Of a DNA stretch of 20,670 bases, positions 11,161 to 20,111 are shown one piece after another. A model generated the notes under the pieces. The model was given only the letters and a program-made list of their open reading frames with translations, did no database searches and had not been told where the DNA came from. The stretch's first letter is position 1. Every line of letters begins with the position of its first letter. This stretch comes from Spirochaetaceae bacterium (GTDB taxonomy: Bacteria > Spirochaetota > Spirochaetia > Treponematales > Breznakiellaceae). The stretch lies in the NCBI GenBank assembly GCA_031284295.1, contig JAITAE010000067.1, positions 1-20,670 of the forward strand, given 5' to 3'. A program made the position numbers and the translations under genes.

Positions 11161-13524
11161 CTAGTTATTTTTGAATGTAAGTGTGTTGCCTGATACGGTG
11201 CAGGTTACGTTGCCGCCGTTGTACATATAGACAGTTTGGGCGGCGGATAGAGTGATGGTAACATCGCCGCCGTTTTTGAGTACCTTTGTACCGCTGTCGC
11301 CCGATTGGTGTTTAAGATAGACAGTAACATCGTAGCCGGAAGGATTGACAAAACGGTAATCATAGCCGCCGCTGCCATTAGCCGTGCCGTTGATAATGCG
11401 GCTTTCCAGCCAAAGAACGCCCCCGCCGGAGGTTTCGGTGGATATTTCGCCAAAACTTGCGGTGTAGGCGTGAACGCCGGTATGCTGCTTAACAAAGTCA
11501 ACATGGTCAAGCGGTGGGTCAAGCGGAGTGCCGTCAACCTGCACCGCGTTGCGGATGTCGCATCTGATGTCCGAAGTATCGGCATAGCCATAGTTAGCGT
11601 GACTCCTCACATAGAAAACATCAATGGCGGTGCCTACAAACGTCATCACATCGGGAGTGTTCTCTGTAGTGGGGTAGTCCGACCGGATTGATCCCCACCT
11701 GCCCATGTTGTCCTGCCATGCGTGATTCTTGTAAAAGGTAACCGCGTAGCGGCGGGTAACGGCGGATTCGTCCACGCTGCCCTTTAGTTCGTACCAGGTA
11801 TCGTCCGGCATTCCGTTCCTGTTTTCGTCTTTCATAACCCAAACAACACCCGGTTCCTCCCAGCCCGCAAAAGCGTTGCCGCCGGTAACGATATCATAGC
11901 CGGGATAGTTATCTACATGGATTTCCCTTATATAGTAACCGCCGAAGCCTCCAAGTGAACCGGCATACCATAGATGGTCCCCCGGCGCGAATGCGCCGCA
12001 ATTTTTTTCCTTTTCCGTAACAGTGGCATCGCTAGGCAAGCTTTCCGCGTTGACACATTCCACCACAGTAGACGCGGAAACAGTCTGCGCCGCCCCCTGC
12101 TCGTCCGTGAAAGAGGCGGTAACGGTAACATTGTAGTTCCCCGCTTGAGTATCCGTCTTAAAGGTAAGGAATTCCCCGTTAGCTTCGTAACTGGCGCTGC
12201 CCGATAATGTCCAGGTGAATGTCGCGCCCGCCGGTATCCGCCAAAGAACGGGCGCTATTACCAGCTTGCGCCCTTCCGTTACCGTATAACGCCCGGGAAC
12301 AGGGTCAATCGCGCTTATCCGCTTGCCGTAGTCAAAGAACAGGTGCGGCGGCATCAACTCTATTACATTGAAGTTAAGGGTGTTGGTAGCTTTATCAATC
12401 CAGTCGCTGCTATCGCCAAAGGTAAGCAGAGGCCCGTTCTTAAAGAACTGTACGGGGCAGTTCCCCGCCTGTGAGGTATCGAATCCCCTAACTTCGTACA
12501 CCGTTTCTCTCCGTTTACTGTTGTCGGAATATACACACGTTACTTGAACGCTGGACGGGTCAAAAGGCTCTCCTACCAGATAAGTAACCTTATTGCTGAA
12601 TATTTCCATACCCCATTGTTCGGCCCTATTTCCGCCCAATAGAATTACACTTCCGCTCACAACACTAGGTATGGTGAGCGTAACCGTGTAGCTTATGCTA
12701 TTCTTTTCGGGCTCTGTTACGGTGATGATGAATTTTATGCTGCCGCCCGCGGCGATTCGGGATGTGTCAACGATAAACACGTCCTTCCATATCCCGCGCC
12801 TTGAGTCCGTGATGCCGGGACTTTCCCCGTCCGCCGCGCTCTGGGCTATATTTACCGCCGCCCCGTCAGCGCCGCTCACGGCCAGGGTCTGCGTTGTCTT
12901 TCTCTTTACGGTAAAGTACGCGGCGGCGGCGGCGGGAAGAACCGCCATCTCCCGCGTCAGTGCCGCCCCGCTCCCGCCAAGTTTTGTTATCTTTAGCCCC
13001 GCGCTGTTCTCCGCTGTGGTACTGATTAGCGGGGCTGCCGTCAGGCTCCCGTACTCGCTCTCGCTCAGGAACGCTCCGGTGTCAGGCTCAAAACTCAAGA
13101 GCTGCGGGGCGGGAGCGTCCGCCCATTCCTCGCCCTCCCCATACTCTGCCGCCTTTACCTCTATCTCTTCCAGCGCGCTGTAGAATTTCCCGCCGGTCTC
13201 CACCAGCAGCACATCAACCGAGTACCGGCCCGCGGGCAGCGGTATTCTGCGCTCCCGGATCGTCTCCGTAACCGGTATGGTAAGCGGTTCAAAGCCGTCT
13301 TCGCCCAGACTTTCGATAAGCGCCCTGCTGTCTCCGGTAAGCTTTAGTTCCTCAGGAACTATAACGGAAAGGAGTATTCCAGTCTCCAGCTCGATGGGGA
13401 CTTCCACCGCTTCCAAAATTCTCTCGCCTGCGGACTGTTCGCAGGACATAAAGAAAAACAGGCAGACCAAAGTAAAAATGAAGAATGAAAAATGAATAAT
13501 GTTGAACAATGGAAAGCGTCTCAT
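11161..13524 (-). CDS. Multidomain surface lipoprotein with C-terminal region like Bacteroidetes B12-locus surface proteins
   Basis: A 787-residue lipoprotein; its hydrophobic N-terminus ends in FFFMSC (lipidated Cys28). Visible parts: a degenerate beta-sandwich segment with SYTVTLTIP near 278, a group-3/4 bacterial Ig-like domain at about 312-362 (VGEPFDPSSVQVTCVYSD then GFDTSQAG), and a PKD-like domain at about 412-490 ending TVTASFTDEQGAAQTVSAS. A C-terminal region (about 525-787) has GGNAFAGWEEPGVVWVMKDE, NGMPDDTWYELKGS and RRYAVTFY. From memory, that last set of motifs recurs in Bacteroidetes cell-surface proteins near BtuB/BtuG cobalamin loci; this was not checked. I chose ATG 13524, preceded by GGGGG at 5-base spacing, over GTG 13530. 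The gap to the upstream gene is 10 bp. It is the last gene of a riboswitch-led operon, so cobamide binding at the surface is a reasonable hypothesis. Confidence 0.8.
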   Translation of the reverse strand: MRRFPLFNIIHFSFFIFTLVCLFFFMSCEQSAGERILEAVEVPIELETGILLSVIVPEELKLTGDSRALIESLGEDGFEPLTIPVTETIRERRIPLPAGRYSVDVLLVETGGKFYSALEEIEVKAAEYGEGEEWADAPAPQLLSFEPDTGAFLSESEYGSLTAAPLISTTAENSAGLKITKLGGSGAALTREMAVLPAAAAAYFTVKRKTTQTLAVSGADGAAVNIAQSAADGESPGITDSRRGIWKDVFIVDTSRIAAGGSIKFIITVTEPEKNSISYTVTLTIPSVVSGSVILLGGNRAEQWGMEIFSNKVTYLVGEPFDPSSVQVTCVYSDNSKRRETVYEVRGFDTSQAGNCPVQFFKNGPLLTFGDSSDWIDKATNTLNFNVIELMPPHLFFDYGKRISAIDPVPGRYTVTEGRKLVIAPVLWRIPAGATFTWTLSGSASYEANGEFLTFKTDTQAGNYNVTVTASFTDEQGAAQTVSASTVVECVNAESLPSDATVTEKEKNCGAFAPGDHLWYAGSLGGFGGYYIREIHVDNYPGYDIVTGGNAFAGWEEPGVVWVMKDENRNGMPDDTWYELKGSVDESAVTRRYAVTFYKNHAWQDNMGRWGSIRSDYPTTENTPDVMTFVGTAIDVFYVRSHANYGYADTSDIRCDIRNAVQVDGTPLDPPLDHVDFVKQHTGVHAYTASFGEISTETSGGGVLWLESRIINGTANGSGGYDYRFVNPSGYDVTVYLKHQSGDSGTKVLKNGGDVTITLSAAQTVYMYNGGNVTCTVSGNTLTFKNN

Positions 13525-13534
13525 CACCACCCCC

Positions 13535-15181
13535 TTATTTGTCTTTTTCAGGACTTACGTTTTCTTTTTCGGCGGAAGTTTTTGCGGTTTCCGCCGCCTT
13601 TACGCGCGCCTCTTCCTGCGCCCGCGCCTTCGCCGCGTTTCTTGCAACGCGGGCAGAACGCGCCAGCATCCGGTGCTTGCCCAGACGGGCGCTGCGGCGG
13701 ACGGCGGCGGGCTCTTCCTGATACAACATCTCGCCTATCAGGTCCAGACAGTTGATGTTGAATTGGGAATCGTACAGTGTACCGGTTCCAATGTTGATGT
13801 CTTTGATTTGGTCGCCGTAGTTGGCTACATCGCAGACCCTTATCTCGTTACCCTTCATAGTCCAAAGTTGATTCGCGGCGTTCAGCACTGCGCCCTCCCA
13901 GTAATAGCCCGCCTCGTCCCCGAAGCCGGAATCGACCCGTGTCAGCAGATTTTCCTCAACCAGCGCTGAAATATTAACGTCCGCTGTTGGCTCCTCTAAC
14001 ATCGCCAGAATGCCCGCAAGGTCGACCCGGTAGTAGCGCCAGCAGGCGCGGATATCCTCGTCATAGGTTAGAGTCCCAAGTAGGGCATTGCTGCCGTCCG
14101 CTGAGACAGCCAAAAAGTGTATGTCGTATGTGCCGTCAGGGTCTACAGACTGCGGAACATCCCCGCCATCCCCCTGAATAAGGTATATTATGTCATCAAA
14201 ATCCGCCTCATCAGTGGCAAAGGCGTTTACCATAGACAGGCAAGATGCCCCCGCGTTGGTAAAACCGTCATTAGCCTGAGTCCCGCCTATCGCGCTGATA
14301 AGGATGTAGTCAATCTCACCGTAGGTATACTTATCCATGTCTGTGGAGTTTTTTCCGACCAGCGCGCTCATCTGATAAATCAATTTGGGGACATTATCGT
14401 TATCTAAAACACATCTATAGCGCACGAGGGTAGACCGGTACTGGGTAGTTACCCAGCCGGTGTTGTCCTCCGCCGTGTTGGAAAAAAGCCCGAATACATA
14501 GGGGATGCCATCAGAATCGTTCATCGTAAGGAGCGCCGTCCCGTGATGGTTGCAGCCGACACTGATATCACGGGCAGGTCCACTGTCCAAGTCAATCGCC
14601 TCCTCCACCGTGCAGGTCTCGCCTTCGTCAGTATCTTTTAGAGCGCTAATGCTTACACGGTAGACCATGGTCGAATCGTAGCCCAGTATTAAAAGGTAGT
14701 CCGGCCCGATTTTTATAACGGATTGCGGGTTTCCCGCCACCTCCACCTCTTCATCGTCCACAGTCATCACCAGCTTAACGTTTTTACCTTTACCGCCCGG
14801 CAAGGTGCGCCAATCGACAATATCAGTACCGCTTATAAGCGTAGGAACAAGAACGGTATAGCTCCCATTCGAGGTAAGAGAGTTTTCTGTTCCAGCAGCA
14901 TCAGGCGAGTCCGGTGCCGGAGATGACGGCAGCGGTGTAAAGACATTGCAAACCAGAACTTCTGTGGCGCCCTCATCGTTTATATACGAAAAAACAAGCG
15001 TATCCTTGTCTGTATCCGCGTCAATGAGCCCGTCAATCCCGGGCGGTGATTCGCTGGCGGGGATTACCTCCGGATTGGCGGGGTCATTTGGACTGTAACT
15101 ATCATCCCCCGTGATATAACGGAGCTTTCCGTGTTTATACTGCGAATCCGCTGCTATATAGTACGCTAAAAATTTTGCCAT
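13535..15181 (-). CDS. 548-residue protein of unknown function, possibly beta-propeller-like
   Basis: Not recognised with confidence. Residues 1 to about 485 are Asp-rich and strand-rich with recurring blade-like segments (DYLLILGYDSTMVYRVSIS, HHGTALLTMNDSDGIPYVF, NQLWTMKGNEIRVCDVANYG), suggesting a beta-propeller or similar repeat fold. The last 60 residues switch to an Arg/Ala/Lys-rich helical tail ending ENVSPEKDK. Unlike both neighbours it has no signal peptide or lipobox, starting MAKFLAYYIAAD. The start is firm: ATG at 15181 has AGGAGG six bases upstream, and no room exists for a leader in the 41-bp gap. It sits between two lipoproteins in the riboswitch-led operon. By analogy with the BtuG propellers of Bacteroidetes a ligand-binding propeller is possible, but the lack of an export signal argues against a simple equivalent. 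Confidence 0.75.
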   Translation of the reverse strand: MAKFLAYYIAADSQYKHGKLRYITGDDSYSPNDPANPEVIPASESPPGIDGLIDADTDKDTLVFSYINDEGATEVLVCNVFTPLPSSPAPDSPDAAGTENSLTSNGSYTVLVPTLISGTDIVDWRTLPGGKGKNVKLVMTVDDEEVEVAGNPQSVIKIGPDYLLILGYDSTMVYRVSISALKDTDEGETCTVEEAIDLDSGPARDISVGCNHHGTALLTMNDSDGIPYVFGLFSNTAEDNTGWVTTQYRSTLVRYRCVLDNDNVPKLIYQMSALVGKNSTDMDKYTYGEIDYILISAIGGTQANDGFTNAGASCLSMVNAFATDEADFDDIIYLIQGDGGDVPQSVDPDGTYDIHFLAVSADGSNALLGTLTYDEDIRACWRYYRVDLAGILAMLEEPTADVNISALVEENLLTRVDSGFGDEAGYYWEGAVLNAANQLWTMKGNEIRVCDVANYGDQIKDINIGTGTLYDSQFNINCLDLIGEMLYQEEPAAVRRSARLGKHRMLARSARVARNAAKARAQEEARVKAAETAKTSAEKENVSPEKDK

Positions 15182-15222: not shown

Positions 15223-17328
15223 TCATGGACCAACCCATTCCGCATAGCCAAACCCATCAGTGGTGTTATAGGTCAATGAAACGGTGCCGTCCATATAGGC
15301 AGTTGTCTTACTCTGATATATATGTCCACCAGTAAATTTGGAAAACAACTCATTAGAAACAGCAACAGGACTATCGGGAGTCCCGCCCTTTAAAAAAGCC
15401 TTACCGTCTGTTTTTTTCCATCCGTAACTAGTATTTTTCATAGGAGCGCTTCCTCCAGTTAAATTAATAACAATATTATTTTCACTAAGATTATTGAAAT
15501 CGCTGCCCAAATAAATTACGCCGCCGGGGGTGCTGGCACTGGTAGCCGCCACCAATTCAAACTCATTACCTATCGTAACATTACCGTTCATAATAAATTT
15601 TCCAGATGCCGACGCACGGATTTGCATGCTCATCCCGCCGGTATTGCCCGATATCGTTCCTCCATTCATCGTAAATGTTGAATTAAACACGTCTACAGCC
15701 CCGCCATTACCAGTAATTATTACATTGGTAATAGTTATAGTCATAGTTGAAGAAATAATAATACCCCATCCGCCATTATTTGAAATCGTCAAATTGCTCC
15801 AATTGTGCGTCCCTCCGGTTCCAGATAATTTAACGCCGTCACCACCATTATTTGAAATCTCGCCGCCTGTAATGACGGAAGTGCTCCATATATCTAATCC
15901 TCGCACATTTGAATTATTACTGATTTTCGCATTGCCCTTCATCTCAAATTTGCCACCTTCTCCGCCAAATACCATCGAAGCGCCGCTGGTAGTACCAGTG
16001 GAGTTGTTGCCGGTAATTTCTCCGCCCTCCATAACGAACTCTCCGGTGTTACCATTAATAGTTACCCCTCTACTAGAGGACTTTAACATTATTAAATTCG
16101 TAATCTTGGAGCCGTCCTTCATAACCACTTTGCCATTACTTTCTTTCTCTCCAATATGAAACACCGGGTAGCTAATGGTTTCATGTACTATATATGCATT
16201 TTTCCCGTCAAACGTGATATTATTGTCCGCCGTTAGAGTGCCGTTATTCAGAATTTTAAAAAGCCCGCTGTTGTTACTCTCAGGAACGGTACCGTCCCAG
16301 CTTATCTTTCGTTCCGCGCTGTCCCCTACCAGCGTTATCTTTATACCCGCCTTGTCATCCCCTGTTGGAAAAGCGTACGGGGCTACAGCCTGGTCCGCAA
16401 ACAGCCGTATAACATACTCGGCATTGGCTGTGCCGTTCTCGTTTATCCACGCCAGTACGCTGTTAAGGTTGTCGTCATACACGCCGTCCACTTCTGTTTT
16501 CACATTGCTTTCTACTATCATGAATTGGACATCACCAATGAATGGCACATCCCCTGATTCCGGTGGTTCGTCCCCTTCAGCAGGGAGTTCGCCCTCATCA
16601 GCGCCTTCATCTTCATCTTCACCGTCTTCGCCTTCCTCATCACTGCCCGGCAGCGATCCAATGACAAACGCCCCCTCTGATGATACCCCTCTCTCTATGT
16701 CGCCTACCTTAACCGCACCGTTTCCACCCAAAACCAGCGTCGCCCCGGCCGTACCCAAGTGATAAATCGCGTTTTGGTTAGCAACGGACAGCTTGCCGTC
16801 TACGCCCGACTCTATATTTTCATCCGCAAAAGCAAGATGATTGCCTTCATTAACAACAAAATTTACACCCTCTGTTATAAAAAATTTTGTTTTTATCAAA
16901 AAAACACCGGCCGTGGCGGAGTCTGCCGCCGGCAGCCGGAGCGCCTGACTTTTGCCGCTTCTATCATTTTTATCCGCCGTTTCCCCGTCCTCTAAATCGG
17001 ATACTATGTATACATCAGCGTCAGCCGTTATCGAATCCACCTCAAGCGTTAAACCAAGCGGAATCACCAGCGTCTTTTTAGTAATTACATTTATAGGCTT
17101 TTTGGCGCTAAAACTATTTTCAACTTTTATCGTACCGGTAAGCGGGTCATTAACGGCTGCTAATAATGAAGCCTCATCGGTAACGGAAACCGTCTTTAAC
17201 GGAATTTCTTCTTTAACCGATTTTAAAATATCCTCGCAACCTATAAACAAAAAAGCCGCAAACAAAAAAGCCGCCGCGCACGATACCGCGCCTGCAAGCC
17301 TCCCAAAACTAAAATTGAAGTTTTTCAT
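15223..17328 (-). CDS. Beta-helix repeat lipoprotein
   Basis: A 701-residue lipoprotein; residues 1-30 are a signal peptide ending LFIGC, with Cys31 the lipidation site. Residues 45-225 are strand-rich with VTDEASLLAAVNDP, a motif common before parallel beta-helix folds. Residues 229-260 are an acidic Glu/Asp/Gly linker. Residues 340-620 carry many short turns of the type GGEITGNN, GGEISNNGG and GGTISGNTGG, characteristic of right-handed parallel beta-helix surface proteins. A binding, adhesive or carbohydrate-contact role at the surface is inferred. ATG at 17328 has AAGGAG at 8-base spacing. It is the first clear gene behind the cobalamin riboswitch, but lies about 490 bases beyond the aptamer, with a possible small ORF and a 15-base homopolymer between them. 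Confidence 0.8.
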   Translation of the reverse strand: MKNFNFSFGRLAGAVSCAAAFLFAAFLFIGCEDILKSVKEEIPLKTVSVTDEASLLAAVNDPLTGTIKVENSFSAKKPINVITKKTLVIPLGLTLEVDSITADADVYIVSDLEDGETADKNDRSGKSQALRLPAADSATAGVFLIKTKFFITEGVNFVVNEGNHLAFADENIESGVDGKLSVANQNAIYHLGTAGATLVLGGNGAVKVGDIERGVSSEGAFVIGSLPGSDEEGEDGEDEDEGADEGELPAEGDEPPESGDVPFIGDVQFMIVESNVKTEVDGVYDDNLNSVLAWINENGTANAEYVIRLFADQAVAPYAFPTGDDKAGIKITLVGDSAERKISWDGTVPESNNSGLFKILNNGTLTADNNITFDGKNAYIVHETISYPVFHIGEKESNGKVVMKDGSKITNLIMLKSSSRGVTINGNTGEFVMEGGEITGNNSTGTTSGASMVFGGEGGKFEMKGNAKISNNSNVRGLDIWSTSVITGGEISNNGGDGVKLSGTGGTHNWSNLTISNNGGWGIIISSTMTITITNVIITGNGGAVDVFNSTFTMNGGTISGNTGGMSMQIRASASGKFIMNGNVTIGNEFELVAATSASTPGGVIYLGSDFNNLSENNIVINLTGGSAPMKNTSYGWKKTDGKAFLKGGTPDSPVAVSNELFSKFTGGHIYQSKTTAYMDGTVSLTYNTTDGFGYAEWVGP

Positions 17329-17349: not shown

Positions 17350-17416
17350 CCCTGGCCCGCGTCCCCTAGTCAAACAACGTTTGACAGACTACTTAAGCCT
17401 AGACGCGGGCTTCAGG
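17350..17416. repeat. Nested inverted-repeat element before the beta-helix lipoprotein
   Basis: Outer arms GCCCGCGTC (17355-17363) and GACGCGGGC (17402-17410) are extended by CCCTG and CAGGG (with a 2-base bulge), and CCTAG/CTAGG-type complementarity continues inward. The interior holds a second hairpin, GTCAAAC (17369-17375) with GTTTGAC (17379-17385). The transcript would form a long stem about 20 bases before the lipoprotein start, just outside its Shine-Dalgarno site. Confidence 0.7.
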
Positions 17417-17765
17417 GCTCAAACCCTACAACAACCGCGCTTTGCGCGGCTATTCCGCCTAAACTAAAAGCCTCTCCGTCCATAGGAACAAGTCCTGTTT
17501 CCGCGAAAGTATATATGTAAAAATTATGTTTGTTATAAAAAATACGGCTGGGGGGGGGGGGGGGCAAATGACGATAATTAACAATCAACGAATAATGACC
17601 GGTGAACAGCGGGTTTTTGCGCGGCGGACGGCGAGTCTGCCGGTAAGTATTACAAGTTGTAAAAGAAATAACAGGAAGGCGGCGTAACACGGAAAATACT
17701 AATACGCCCAACGTACTATGGAAATAATTTTCGCCAAACCACCGCATTGCGGCTGCTGGAAACAT
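17412..17765 (-). CDS. Possible small leader ORF behind the cobalamin riboswitch
   Basis: A 117-residue frame with no recognised homology. The case for it: ATG at 17765 has GGAGG at 5-base spacing, lies 57 bases after the aptamer's closing stem, and both SD and ATG fall inside a potential hairpin (17763-17795), a normal layout for a translational riboswitch. The case against: the protein has no recognisable domain or clear signal peptide, its middle (about 17565-17605) looks like AT-rich noncoding repeat, and its 3' end is a hairpin also found at 18024-18060. It contains PPPPP encoded by the 15-base C tract, so any tract change not divisible by three would shift the frame. It may be an uORF rather than a functional protein. 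Confidence 0.35.
   Translation of the reverse strand: MFPAAAMRWFGENYFHSTLGVLVFSVLRRLPVISFTTCNTYRQTRRPPRKNPLFTGHYSLIVNYRHLPPPPPSRIFYNKHNFYIYTFAETGLVPMDGEAFSLGGIAAQSAVVVGFEP
17424..17460. repeat. Hairpin repeat C, copy 1
   Basis: Aligns base for base with 18024-18060 (offset exactly 600): both have C-ACAACCGCGC, a 3-base centre, GC(G/A)CGG and TTCCGC. It forms the CCGCGC-TTT-GCGCGG hairpin. The second copy is part of the riboswitch aptamer. Confidence 0.7.
17550..17564. repeat. Homopolymeric tract of 15 G (C on the operon strand)
   Basis: Fifteen consecutive G on the plus strand, C on the transcribed strand of the lipoprotein operon, 222 bases upstream of the beta-helix lipoprotein start and in frame within the possible leader ORF. 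Tracts of this length slip readily during replication. In Treponema pallidum, poly-G tracts upstream of tpr genes cause phase variation. Its exact length in the assembly may be unreliable. Confidence 0.95.
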
Positions 17766-17795
17766 GGAAACCTCCGGCCTGTAGCGGGCCACATG
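17763..17795 (-). promoter_or_regulatory. Possible riboswitch expression platform (SD/start hairpin)
   Basis: On the minus strand CATG(T)G (17790-17795) can pair with CCATG (17763-17767) and GGCC (17787-17790) with GGCC (17776-17779). This encloses the GGAGG (17771-17775) and ATG (17763-17765) of the possible leader ORF. No U-tract follows, so control of translation rather than Rho-independent termination is suggested. Pairing was judged by eye. Confidence 0.4.
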
Positions 17796-17821
17796 GGATT
17801 CGTCACGGGCAAAAGCCCGCC

Positions 17822-18074
17822 GCATACCAAAGTTTCCTGACTTATGAACCGGCGACAATCCGCCAAGGGCGCCGCGCCTTCCCGAAACCGCAAAATGTAA
17901 CACATCCCGCACTCTCAGTGGCATTTACGCCGCCCCGCCTGTCCGTCAATGCCGGACAAGCCATTCAATCACAGTTACGCCATAGTGGGGGAATCACACC
18001 CTAAGACTTACGCGAGGCGCAAGTCCCATAACAACCGCGCAAAGCACGGTTGTTCCGCTTCCATTGAAGTATAC
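17822..18074 (-). promoter_or_regulatory. Cobalamin (B12) riboswitch aptamer
   Basis: On the minus strand, in order: 5' closing strand GTATAC (18069-18074); hairpin AACAACCG/CGGTTGTT; GGGAC (18023-18027); an 8-bp hairpin; GGTGTGATTCC (17990-18000); AACTGTGA (17969-17976); GCCACTG (17916-17922); GGGAAGGCG (17875-17883); the B12 box AAGTCAGGAAACTT (17830-17843); and the 3' closing strand GTATGC (17822-17827). Order and spacing match the cobalamin riboswitch consensus (GGTGaaAatCC, AACTGT, GCCACTG, GGGAAGGC, AGCCAGGAgACC). It is somewhat long because of added hairpins. It lies directly behind a consensus promoter and should lower expression of the leftward lipoprotein operon when adenosylcobalamin or a related cobamide is plentiful. 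Confidence 0.92.
18024..18060. repeat. Hairpin repeat C, copy 2 (within the riboswitch 5' region)
   Basis: Counterpart of 17424-17460. On the minus strand it forms AACAACCG-N9-CGGTTGTT and includes the GGGAC that starts the aptamer core, so it is structurally part of the riboswitch. A related but shorter stem occurs at 11116-11137. Confidence 0.7.
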
Positions 18075-18082
18075 TAACCAGC

Positions 18083-18111
18083 ATTATATCGCACGAAATT
18101 TTTTTTGTCAA
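18083..18111 (-). promoter_or_regulatory. Consensus sigma-70 promoter of the riboswitch operon
   Basis: TTGACA (18106-18111) and TATAAT (18083-18088) on the minus strand are separated by exactly 17 bp. The expected transcription start is near 18076, which places the riboswitch closing stem (18069-18074) at the very 5' end of the RNA. Confidence 0.9.
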
Positions 18112-19013: not shown

Positions 19014-20111
19014 CTAGCTGTCAAGTTTTACAAGCGCCCAAACGTTTAGTGTTTCCTGCCCTAAACGCCAAAACCCTACGTTTTTAACGCCCTGTGTGCG
19101 GTACATACGCATACGTGAAGCAAGCGAGTATTCGTCTTCGTAGTATACCGTAACCCGAACCGTTATATCGTATGTAAATGTTGGTATGCCATTGACGCGG
19201 CGGAAGTTCTGTGCATCGTAATCGCGTTTTAGGTTTTCTGTCGTGCTGTGTATAAGGCCGCGCGATGTGCTTTTATCACCCCAACTGCGCCCGTAAAACG
19301 GTATACCCATAATAAGTTTTTCCGGTCCTATCGCTTGCAGGCTGTAATCCGCCACAGATTTACACCAATTCATTGAAGCCACCGGGCCGGGCGAACTACC
19401 CGACCAATGCTCATCGTATGCCATTACAAAAATACGATCGGCGATTGCTGCTATTGAAACATAATTGTAAGTACCGCCGGCGCGAGTGCGTGCAGGTACG
19501 CAAACCGAAAGCATTTTACTACCTAAACCGGCGCGTATTTCGGCTAAAAACGATAAAAAATGTTCCGCATCGCGCGCCGGCACACTTTCCAAATCCACAT
19601 TGAGGCCGTCATAATCCTTTACCGCCGCGAGTATTTCCGAAACAAGCAGCCTTCTAGCCTCACTACCCCCCTGAATAACAAAATGAGTGAGGCCGGCACT
19701 GTTACAAACAAGAGCCAAATGCACCCTACCGTTAAATTTACTGATATTTTTTCGGCGCGGAATATCGGCTAGATGGCCATAACGGTCAACCTCTGCCGCG
19801 AAATATACCAAATCTGAAACAGGATAACGGCTTTTAATATCCCCTTCCCGCCCGCTGAGTAGATATGCCCACACCTCGCCAAAGGAGCTTTCCGGCAGCC
19901 CGTCAATGTTGTTTTCCGACAATTCCACGATTTCATAGAGTTCTTCCGTTTCCACGACAATTTCATCTTCAACATGAACTATTTCTTCAACCGTTTCGAG
20001 ATTCGCCGTATTCAAATCACTGGTTGGCGACGTAGGGGCAGTCGTCCTACAACTGGAAATTTCAAACAGTATAATTAAAATTAAAATGATTTTTAAACTA
20101 TTTAGTCGCAT
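19014..20111 (-). CDS. GH18/YaaH-like glycosidase lipoprotein
   Basis: A 365-residue lipoprotein; the hydrophobic N-terminus ends in ISSC with lipidated Cys21. A Glu/Val-rich spacer (about 35-75) follows. The rest is a glycoside hydrolase family 18 barrel of the spore-germination YaaH/SleL type. DYDGLNVDLES at 166-176 carries the catalytic signature with Glu175 as proton donor and Asp173 beside it. MAYDEHWSGSSPGPVASMNW and EKLIMGIPFYGRSW are the conserved later strands. The catalytic residues are intact, so an active enzyme cleaving beta-1,4-linked N-acetylhexosamine polymers is expected. Peptidoglycan remodelling at the envelope is most likely; chitin degradation cannot be excluded. No LysM domain is present. 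ATG 20111 has no Shine-Dalgarno site, but a promoter lies only 8 bases upstream. Confidence 0.87.
   Translation of the reverse strand: MRLNSLKIILILIILFEISSCRTTAPTSPTSDLNTANLETVEEIVHVEDEIVVETEELYEIVELSENNIDGLPESSFGEVWAYLLSGREGDIKSRYPVSDLVYFAAEVDRYGHLADIPRRKNISKFNGRVHLALVCNSAGLTHFVIQGGSEARRLLVSEILAAVKDYDGLNVDLESVPARDAEHFLSFLAEIRAGLGSKMLSVCVPARTRAGGTYNYVSIAAIADRIFVMAYDEHWSGSSPGPVASMNWCKSVADYSLQAIGPEKLIMGIPFYGRSWGDKSTSRGLIHSTTENLKRDYDAQNFRRVNGIPTFTYDITVRVTVYYEDEYSLASRMRMYRTQGVKNVGFWRLGQETLNVWALVKLDS

Follow-up and report, generated by a model that had tools for sequence, protein, structure and literature searches.

A lineage-form cobalamin riboswitch ahead of a probable BtuH-type cobamide-capture operon in a spirochaete

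Surface capture of cobamides by BtuH-type lipoproteins has been worked out in gut Bacteroides. BtuH2 of Bacteroides thetaiotaomicron (PDB entry 7BIZ) is presented in the original report as a surface B12-binding lipoprotein that is needed for efficient B12 uptake; some of the BtuH proteins described there lack Ig-like domains, and over 80% of BtuH homologues lie in an operon with btuB (PMC8941943), an association that is usual without defining the family. A related arrangement is found in the BtuB1–BtuG1 complex (8BLW), where BtuG1 bears a BtuH domain, according to the corresponding paper (PMC10404256). For spirochaetes, the open-licence literature yields nothing on BtuG together with riboswitch and spirochete, and the sole match for BtuH with Spirochaet is a paper that attributes some Spirochaetota members to the DUF4465/BtuJ family of B12-binding proteins (PMC13398666).

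Here, we analyse a 20,670-nucleotide stretch of spirochaete DNA ('the window') and consider it probable that a real, lineage-form cobalamin riboswitch controls an operon for a cell-surface cobamide-capture module. With the BtuH locus of B. thetaiotaomicron (7BIZ; PMC8941943), this operon has in common a lipoprotein with Ig-like domains and a C-terminal H domain as well as riboswitch control of the locus, and differs in its spirochaete host, in the replacement of most corrin contacts, in a window without btuB and in its partners, i.e. a beta-helix-like lipoprotein and an unknown protein of about 500 residues. With the Bacteroides BtuBG loci that encode a fused BtuG1-H protein (8BLW; PMC10404256), it shares a homologous H domain (E 4.9e-53) and B12 riboswitches; in contrast to these loci, the window protein carries no fused propeller and its 548-residue neighbour shows no BtuG-like propeller match.

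In our proposal, scarcity of cobamides would allow expression of the operon, i.e. of the beta-helix-like lipoprotein, the approximately 500-residue protein and the BtuH-type lipoprotein, the last of which would bind cobamides at the cell surface and pass them on to a TonB-dependent transporter encoded elsewhere. Cobamide bound to the aptamer would lower expression, presumably at the level of translation, as suggested by a hairpin that abuts a Shine–Dalgarno sequence and ATG behind the aptamer. A BtuH-type capture module would thus be placed in spirochaetes with different partners, among them a previously undescribed family of about 500 residues. Ordinary annotation misses this module twice, with the riboswitch scoring below the Rfam cut-off and the H domain belonging to no Pfam or NCBIfam family.

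All parts of the locus lie on the minus strand. A TTGACA-N17-TATAAT promoter (18083..18111, with the -35 at 18111-18106 and the -10 at 18088-18083) matches the consensus at 12 of 12 positions and is the sole perfect one of eight promoter-like sites between 17000 and 19100, where shuffled sequences contain 2.3 on average; the orthologous leader in the sister genome G005 (locus L057) has an identical -35 and TATACT at equal spacing. The aptamer (17818..18077), recognized by RF00174 and by a lineage covariance model, begins at the transcription start expected from this promoter, just as an earlier sequence-only reading had proposed. That reading had also described conserved aptamer blocks in order and a closing stem, and these could indeed be located: GGTGTGATTCC at 18000-17990 is followed by AACTGT within 17981-17966, GCCACTG at 17922-17916, CGGGAAGGCG at 17884-17875 and the B12 box AAGTCAGGAAACTTTGGTATGC at 17843-17822, with the P1 arms GTATAC at 18074-18069 and GTATGC at 17827-17822. 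Core blocks in this order, the B12 box, a T-loop-like GGTG..ATTCC and the position in a gene leader are as in RF00174. Different from RF00174 are the lineage P1, in which GTATAC/GTATGC is extended by CAATG/CTTTG, the P2 pairs of the family model, which are unformed in L057, and, in the window aptamer, a score under the gathering score as well as two added hairpins (18054-18030 and 18025-18005, together 18005..18054), which do not occur in the L057 leader.

The sequence-only reading had pointed to a covariance search with RF00174. In a permissive scan (4227 families, 1201 nt), the window aptamer matches RF00174 with 21.7 bits and an E-value of 0.004 (0.0014 across the host genome), which is less than the gathering score of 31.5 bits, a curation threshold rather than a biological trait, and therefore Rfam reports nothing for the window under default settings. 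The lineage model, built from 28 RF00174-type riboswitches of relatives with the window, L057 and L063 (genome G003) all left out, assigns 82.1 bits to the window aptamer (E 2.6e-20, with E-values being rough owing to a short calibration), 112.4 bits to L057 and 79.6 bits to L063. The host genome's second copy, on contig C55, receives 60.3 bits, and in the remaining 18 of 22 sources the model recognizes nothing up to an E-value of 1. Under RF00174, L057 scores 30.2 bits and L063 is not picked up within the same E limit, its riboswitch having been detected by motif and lineage model. Among the 59 genomes searched, RF00174 matches occur in 47 (own genome included) and exceed the cut-off in 46. 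A riboswitch that arose merely by chance resemblance is ruled out by the lineage model scores together with the RF00174 match of L057.

The P1 arms correspond to the lineage signature GTATACTTCAAAGGAAG ... AGYCAGGARACTTTGGTATAC. In the 28 aligned copies, which come from one family of genomes, the common arms are GTATAC..CAAAG and CTTTG..GTATAC, along with the box AGYCAGGARACTTTGG; 97.4% of P1 cells pair, and both partners have changed in 6 of the 11 pairs, in a structure derived from these same 28 sequences. For the whole consensus structure, 95.4% of cells pair (shuffles, 87.8%) and 14 pairs carry both-side changes (shuffles, 6.5; none of 500 shuffles as high), figures to be read in the light of the structure having been derived from the same sequences and of a relatedness that persists in the shuffles; sliding the partners against each other destroys the pairing signal. 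By these comparisons, we regard the cobalamin riboswitch at 18077-17818 as confirmed and as a spirochaete-lineage form, which is predicted to bind a cobamide.

Directly behind the aptamer, a hairpin GGCC..GGCC is followed by a Shine–Dalgarno sequence (GGAGG, 17775-17771) and an ATG at 17765-17763 (whole element, 17763..17792), and this succession, with GGAGG or GAGG, is common to the window, L057 and L063. The segment occurs at a single place in the host genome, which excludes a genome-wide repeat, and a search by eye found no kissing partner for the hairpin. Because the hairpin abuts the Shine–Dalgarno sequence and ATG, because a terminator scan of the leader found none and because in other relatives the first gene, for instance that for the TonB receptor of G028:C38, immediately follows the hairpin and Shine–Dalgarno sequence, riboswitch control is likely to act on translation. 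In the window, the ATG at 17765 opens a leader reading frame of 117 codons (17412..17765) just past the riboswitch. The start of the lipoprotein gene lies 435 nt beyond the leader ATG, i.e. the Shine–Dalgarno sequence and ATG next to the hairpin belong to the leader frame instead; this frame stops 83 nt before the gene, and its sequence conservation ends after the first codons. As the ATG in the window opens this leader frame, the lipoprotein itself may be controlled through coupling or polarity.

Inside the leader frame lies a poly-C tract of 15 C on the RNA strand (17550..17564). A treponeme precedent for homopolymeric C/G tracts upstream of surface-protein genes is Treponema pallidum, where poly-G tracts in the promoters of genes for outer-membrane proteins are reported to be variable, with effects on expression (PMC7864442). 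In T. pallidum, these tracts comprise 7-11 nt, reside within the promoter and are known to vary in length, whereas here we deal with candidate phase-variation tracts of 13-16 nt in a transcribed leader behind a riboswitch. Searches of the open-licence literature revealed nothing on a riboswitch combined with phase variation and a homopolymeric tract, nor on cobalamin riboswitches with leader peptide and poly-C. It seems possible that riboswitch control and phase variation are combined in a single leader, and, if the tract is phase-variable, a gut symbiont would supplement ligand sensing with a random hedge in its vitamin uptake.

This has to be weighed against the view that the tract arose during assembly or is a neutral leftover that does not affect regulation, to which we assign an even chance. 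Where long C/G runs coincide with contig ends, as with the 83 C that open L097 and the 29 that border L178, they have the look of artefacts, and tracts of this kind are frequent in the genus, with 267 overlapping 12-mer C/G matches in the host genome. On the other hand, orthologous leaders from separate assemblies share internal C tracts between unique flanks (15 C in the window, 14 in L057 and 15 in L063), and tracts are concentrated behind cobalamin riboswitches. Within the genus, C/G tracts of 14-16 nt follow 14 of 20 such riboswitches (12 C, 2 G; counting riboswitches with at least 250 nt downstream and tracts within 700 nt), and the sequences upstream of the genus riboswitches, taken as a control, contain one tract in 7654 nt. 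The artefact or relic view gains from nine riboswitch copies found later: seven have enough downstream DNA and only two of these are followed by a tract, although some of the later matches are short and possibly not riboswitches (the 34 matches comprise 21 counted earlier, 9 new ones with a locus and 4 without a locus, which were left out of the tract count). Altogether, a tract of 13-16 nt lies behind 16 of 27 cobalamin riboswitches of the genus, in comparison to 4 of 68 ordinary gene leaders on 20 arbitrary contig stretches (163,831 nt; Fisher p 6.5e-8) and to none of seven TPP riboswitches of the genus (p 0.008), with both p-values overstating the case because the genomes are related and ORF calls are mechanical. 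Outside the genus but within the family, a tract follows 5 of 38 cobalamin riboswitches, and two of these five are at contig ends. An ATG with a permissively defined Shine–Dalgarno sequence reads into the tract in 9 of 12 poly-C copies, a share not controlled for chance, and in G004:C366, G005:C35 and G023:C139 (the last from another genus) the tract is inside the coding sequence of the first gene. The second riboswitch of the host genome (L069 2963-3134, on C55) is likewise followed by a 15-C tract, after which the contig ends before a gene. Throughout the genus, the riboswitch might then gate translation of a leader frame with a slippery C/G tract of 13-16 nt, such that much of the B12 regulon, including capture lipoproteins, would be both nutritionally controlled and phase-varied from cell to cell; we put this forward tentatively and regard it as rather doubtful.

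The third gene behind the leader (11161..13530) encodes a 789-residue lipoprotein with Ig-like domains followed by an H domain at about residues 505-702; its lipoprotein signal, judged by eye, is a hydrophobic stretch followed by FFFMSC. Neither Pfam nor NCBIfam has a family that matches its C-terminal domain, and so this protein passes for an unknown. Compared to PDB sequences, however, it matches 7BIZ and chain B of 8BLW already as a single sequence (E 4.7e-19 and 1.9e-15), and a profile of 26 relatives does so with E-values of 3.2e-75 and 4.9e-53; the profile alignment to 7BIZ also covers the Ig-like part of the latter, in line with a Big_3 match in the 789-residue protein. Its identification as a BtuH homologue with Ig-like and C-terminal domains is thus secure on homology grounds, and the operon therefore looks like a cobamide-capture operon. 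The sequence-only reading, which had seen no recognized B12 gene downstream of the riboswitch, was wrong on this point; the cobamide-responsive surface system that it had envisaged is supported, with the BtuH homology as the more direct evidence.

Matches to the 789-residue protein were found in 11 of 59 genomes, own included. In named genomes, a single-sequence scan revealed no relative, and a profile scan did find relatives (best 80 of 561), with the spirochaete ones being titled Treponema or Spirochaetaceae MAGs, whose isolate codes are of a kind used in termite-gut surveys. The order riboswitch, lipoprotein(s), approximately 500-residue gene and BtuH is present in the window and in four relatives, i.e. 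L057 (G005), L063 (G003), L054 (G018) and L055 (G004, with a second lipoprotein), and L056 (G010) has riboswitch, lipoprotein and BtuH without the approximately 500-residue gene. This gene is also upstream of BtuH in L062, L064 (with one gene between), L097 and L104, all four on contigs that break off ahead of the operon start or right at it. A point against our proposal is that several BtuH-like loci (e.g. L059, L065, L088) have no riboswitch in the sequence available for them. L203 (G026) has, behind its riboswitch, first a small lipoprotein and a BtuH-like one (7BIZ, E 1.4e-4), then a TonB-dependent receptor and a YncE/BtuG-like propeller; in L099 (titled Treponema sp.), two lipoproteins come after BtuH, then a TonB receptor, a Mg-chelatase-like ATPase, FecCD and an ABC ATPase, and in L061 BtuH is followed by a TonB receptor.

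No TonB receptor or transporter gene was found in the window itself, which fits with the idea that, under a genuine riboswitch, the operon serves some other role under cobamide scarcity, such as adhesion or surface remodelling, and that its BtuH-like protein has lost cobamide binding. Set against this are the relatives just described, in which BtuH adjoins TonB receptors. The host genome, which is 58% complete, encodes TonB plug domains on C42 and C187, FecCD on C29 and C213 and two proteins with a B12-binding domain, all of them outside the window. The eight contact residues published for BtuH2 (PMC8941943; chain index equals residue minus 100) speak for both sides. Only two of the eight are kept in the window, i.e. 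Asn399 and Phe401, the latter being Phe also in 16 of the 22 other spirochaete domains and in 56 of the 68 from Bacteroidota. Gln333, present in 20 of 22 other spirochaete and 67 of 68 Bacteroidota domains, is Asp in the window, Leu578 is Phe, and for His476, Tyr510 and Trp511 a window counterpart is not evident in the alignments. Trp577 is Ser in the window and is found in none of the 22 other spirochaete domains, but it is missing from 23 of 68 Bacteroidota domains as well (present in 45), and Asn399 is invariant in all 91 aligned H domains, the window included. The H-domain tree places the window together with L057 on a long, divergent branch (1.08 changes per column), and this speaks for the different role. 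All in all, we consider such a different role unlikely and favour the cobamide-capture operon, with a 789-residue protein that we infer to bind cobamides. That the H domain was acquired recently from Bacteroidota was considered but not adopted: a quick tree of the 91 domains, which resolves neither root nor direction, separates spirochaetes and Bacteroidota by one change (support 83).

A decaying or inactive aptamer, or one that affects the leader frame only and leaves the lipoprotein genes unaffected, would agree with the low RF00174 score, the two inserted hairpins and the 435 nt that separate the ATG of the leader from that of the lipoprotein. This reading is very improbable, given that L057 and L063 have kept core blocks, P1, hairpin, Shine–Dalgarno sequence and ATG, in contrast to the remaining leader sequence, which is not conserved.

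The first two genes of the putative capture operon have no B12 link by sequence. The 701-residue lipoprotein (15223..17328; ribosome-binding site AAGGAG at 17342-17337) shows a weak match, below its cut-off, to a right-handed beta-helix family. The 548-residue protein (13535..15181) has no match in Pfam, NCBIfam, PHROGs or PDB sequences and represents an undescribed family with seven aligned members. A BtuG-type propeller is not supported by these same collections, nor by comparing profiles with the BtuG-like protein encoded in L203, which gave a probability of 1.3%. The family adjoins BtuH-like genes in L054, L055, L057, L062, L063, L064, L097 and L104, and its members apparently have no signal peptide (none evident by eye in the seven aligned ones), although their neighbours are lipoproteins. 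Further proteins of 300-430 residues that are unmatched in Pfam and have no obvious signal peptide are encoded around BtuH-like genes of relatives (L057 7319-9681, L063 10451-11266, L064 6285-7382 and L055 2558-3694) and are absent from the window. Elsewhere in the window, 666-1745 encodes a 359-residue protein with a long repetitive N-terminal segment rich in Q, A and P, and a lipoprotein-like protein of Glycosyl hydrolase family 18 is encoded upstream of the riboswitch at 19014-20111 on the minus strand.
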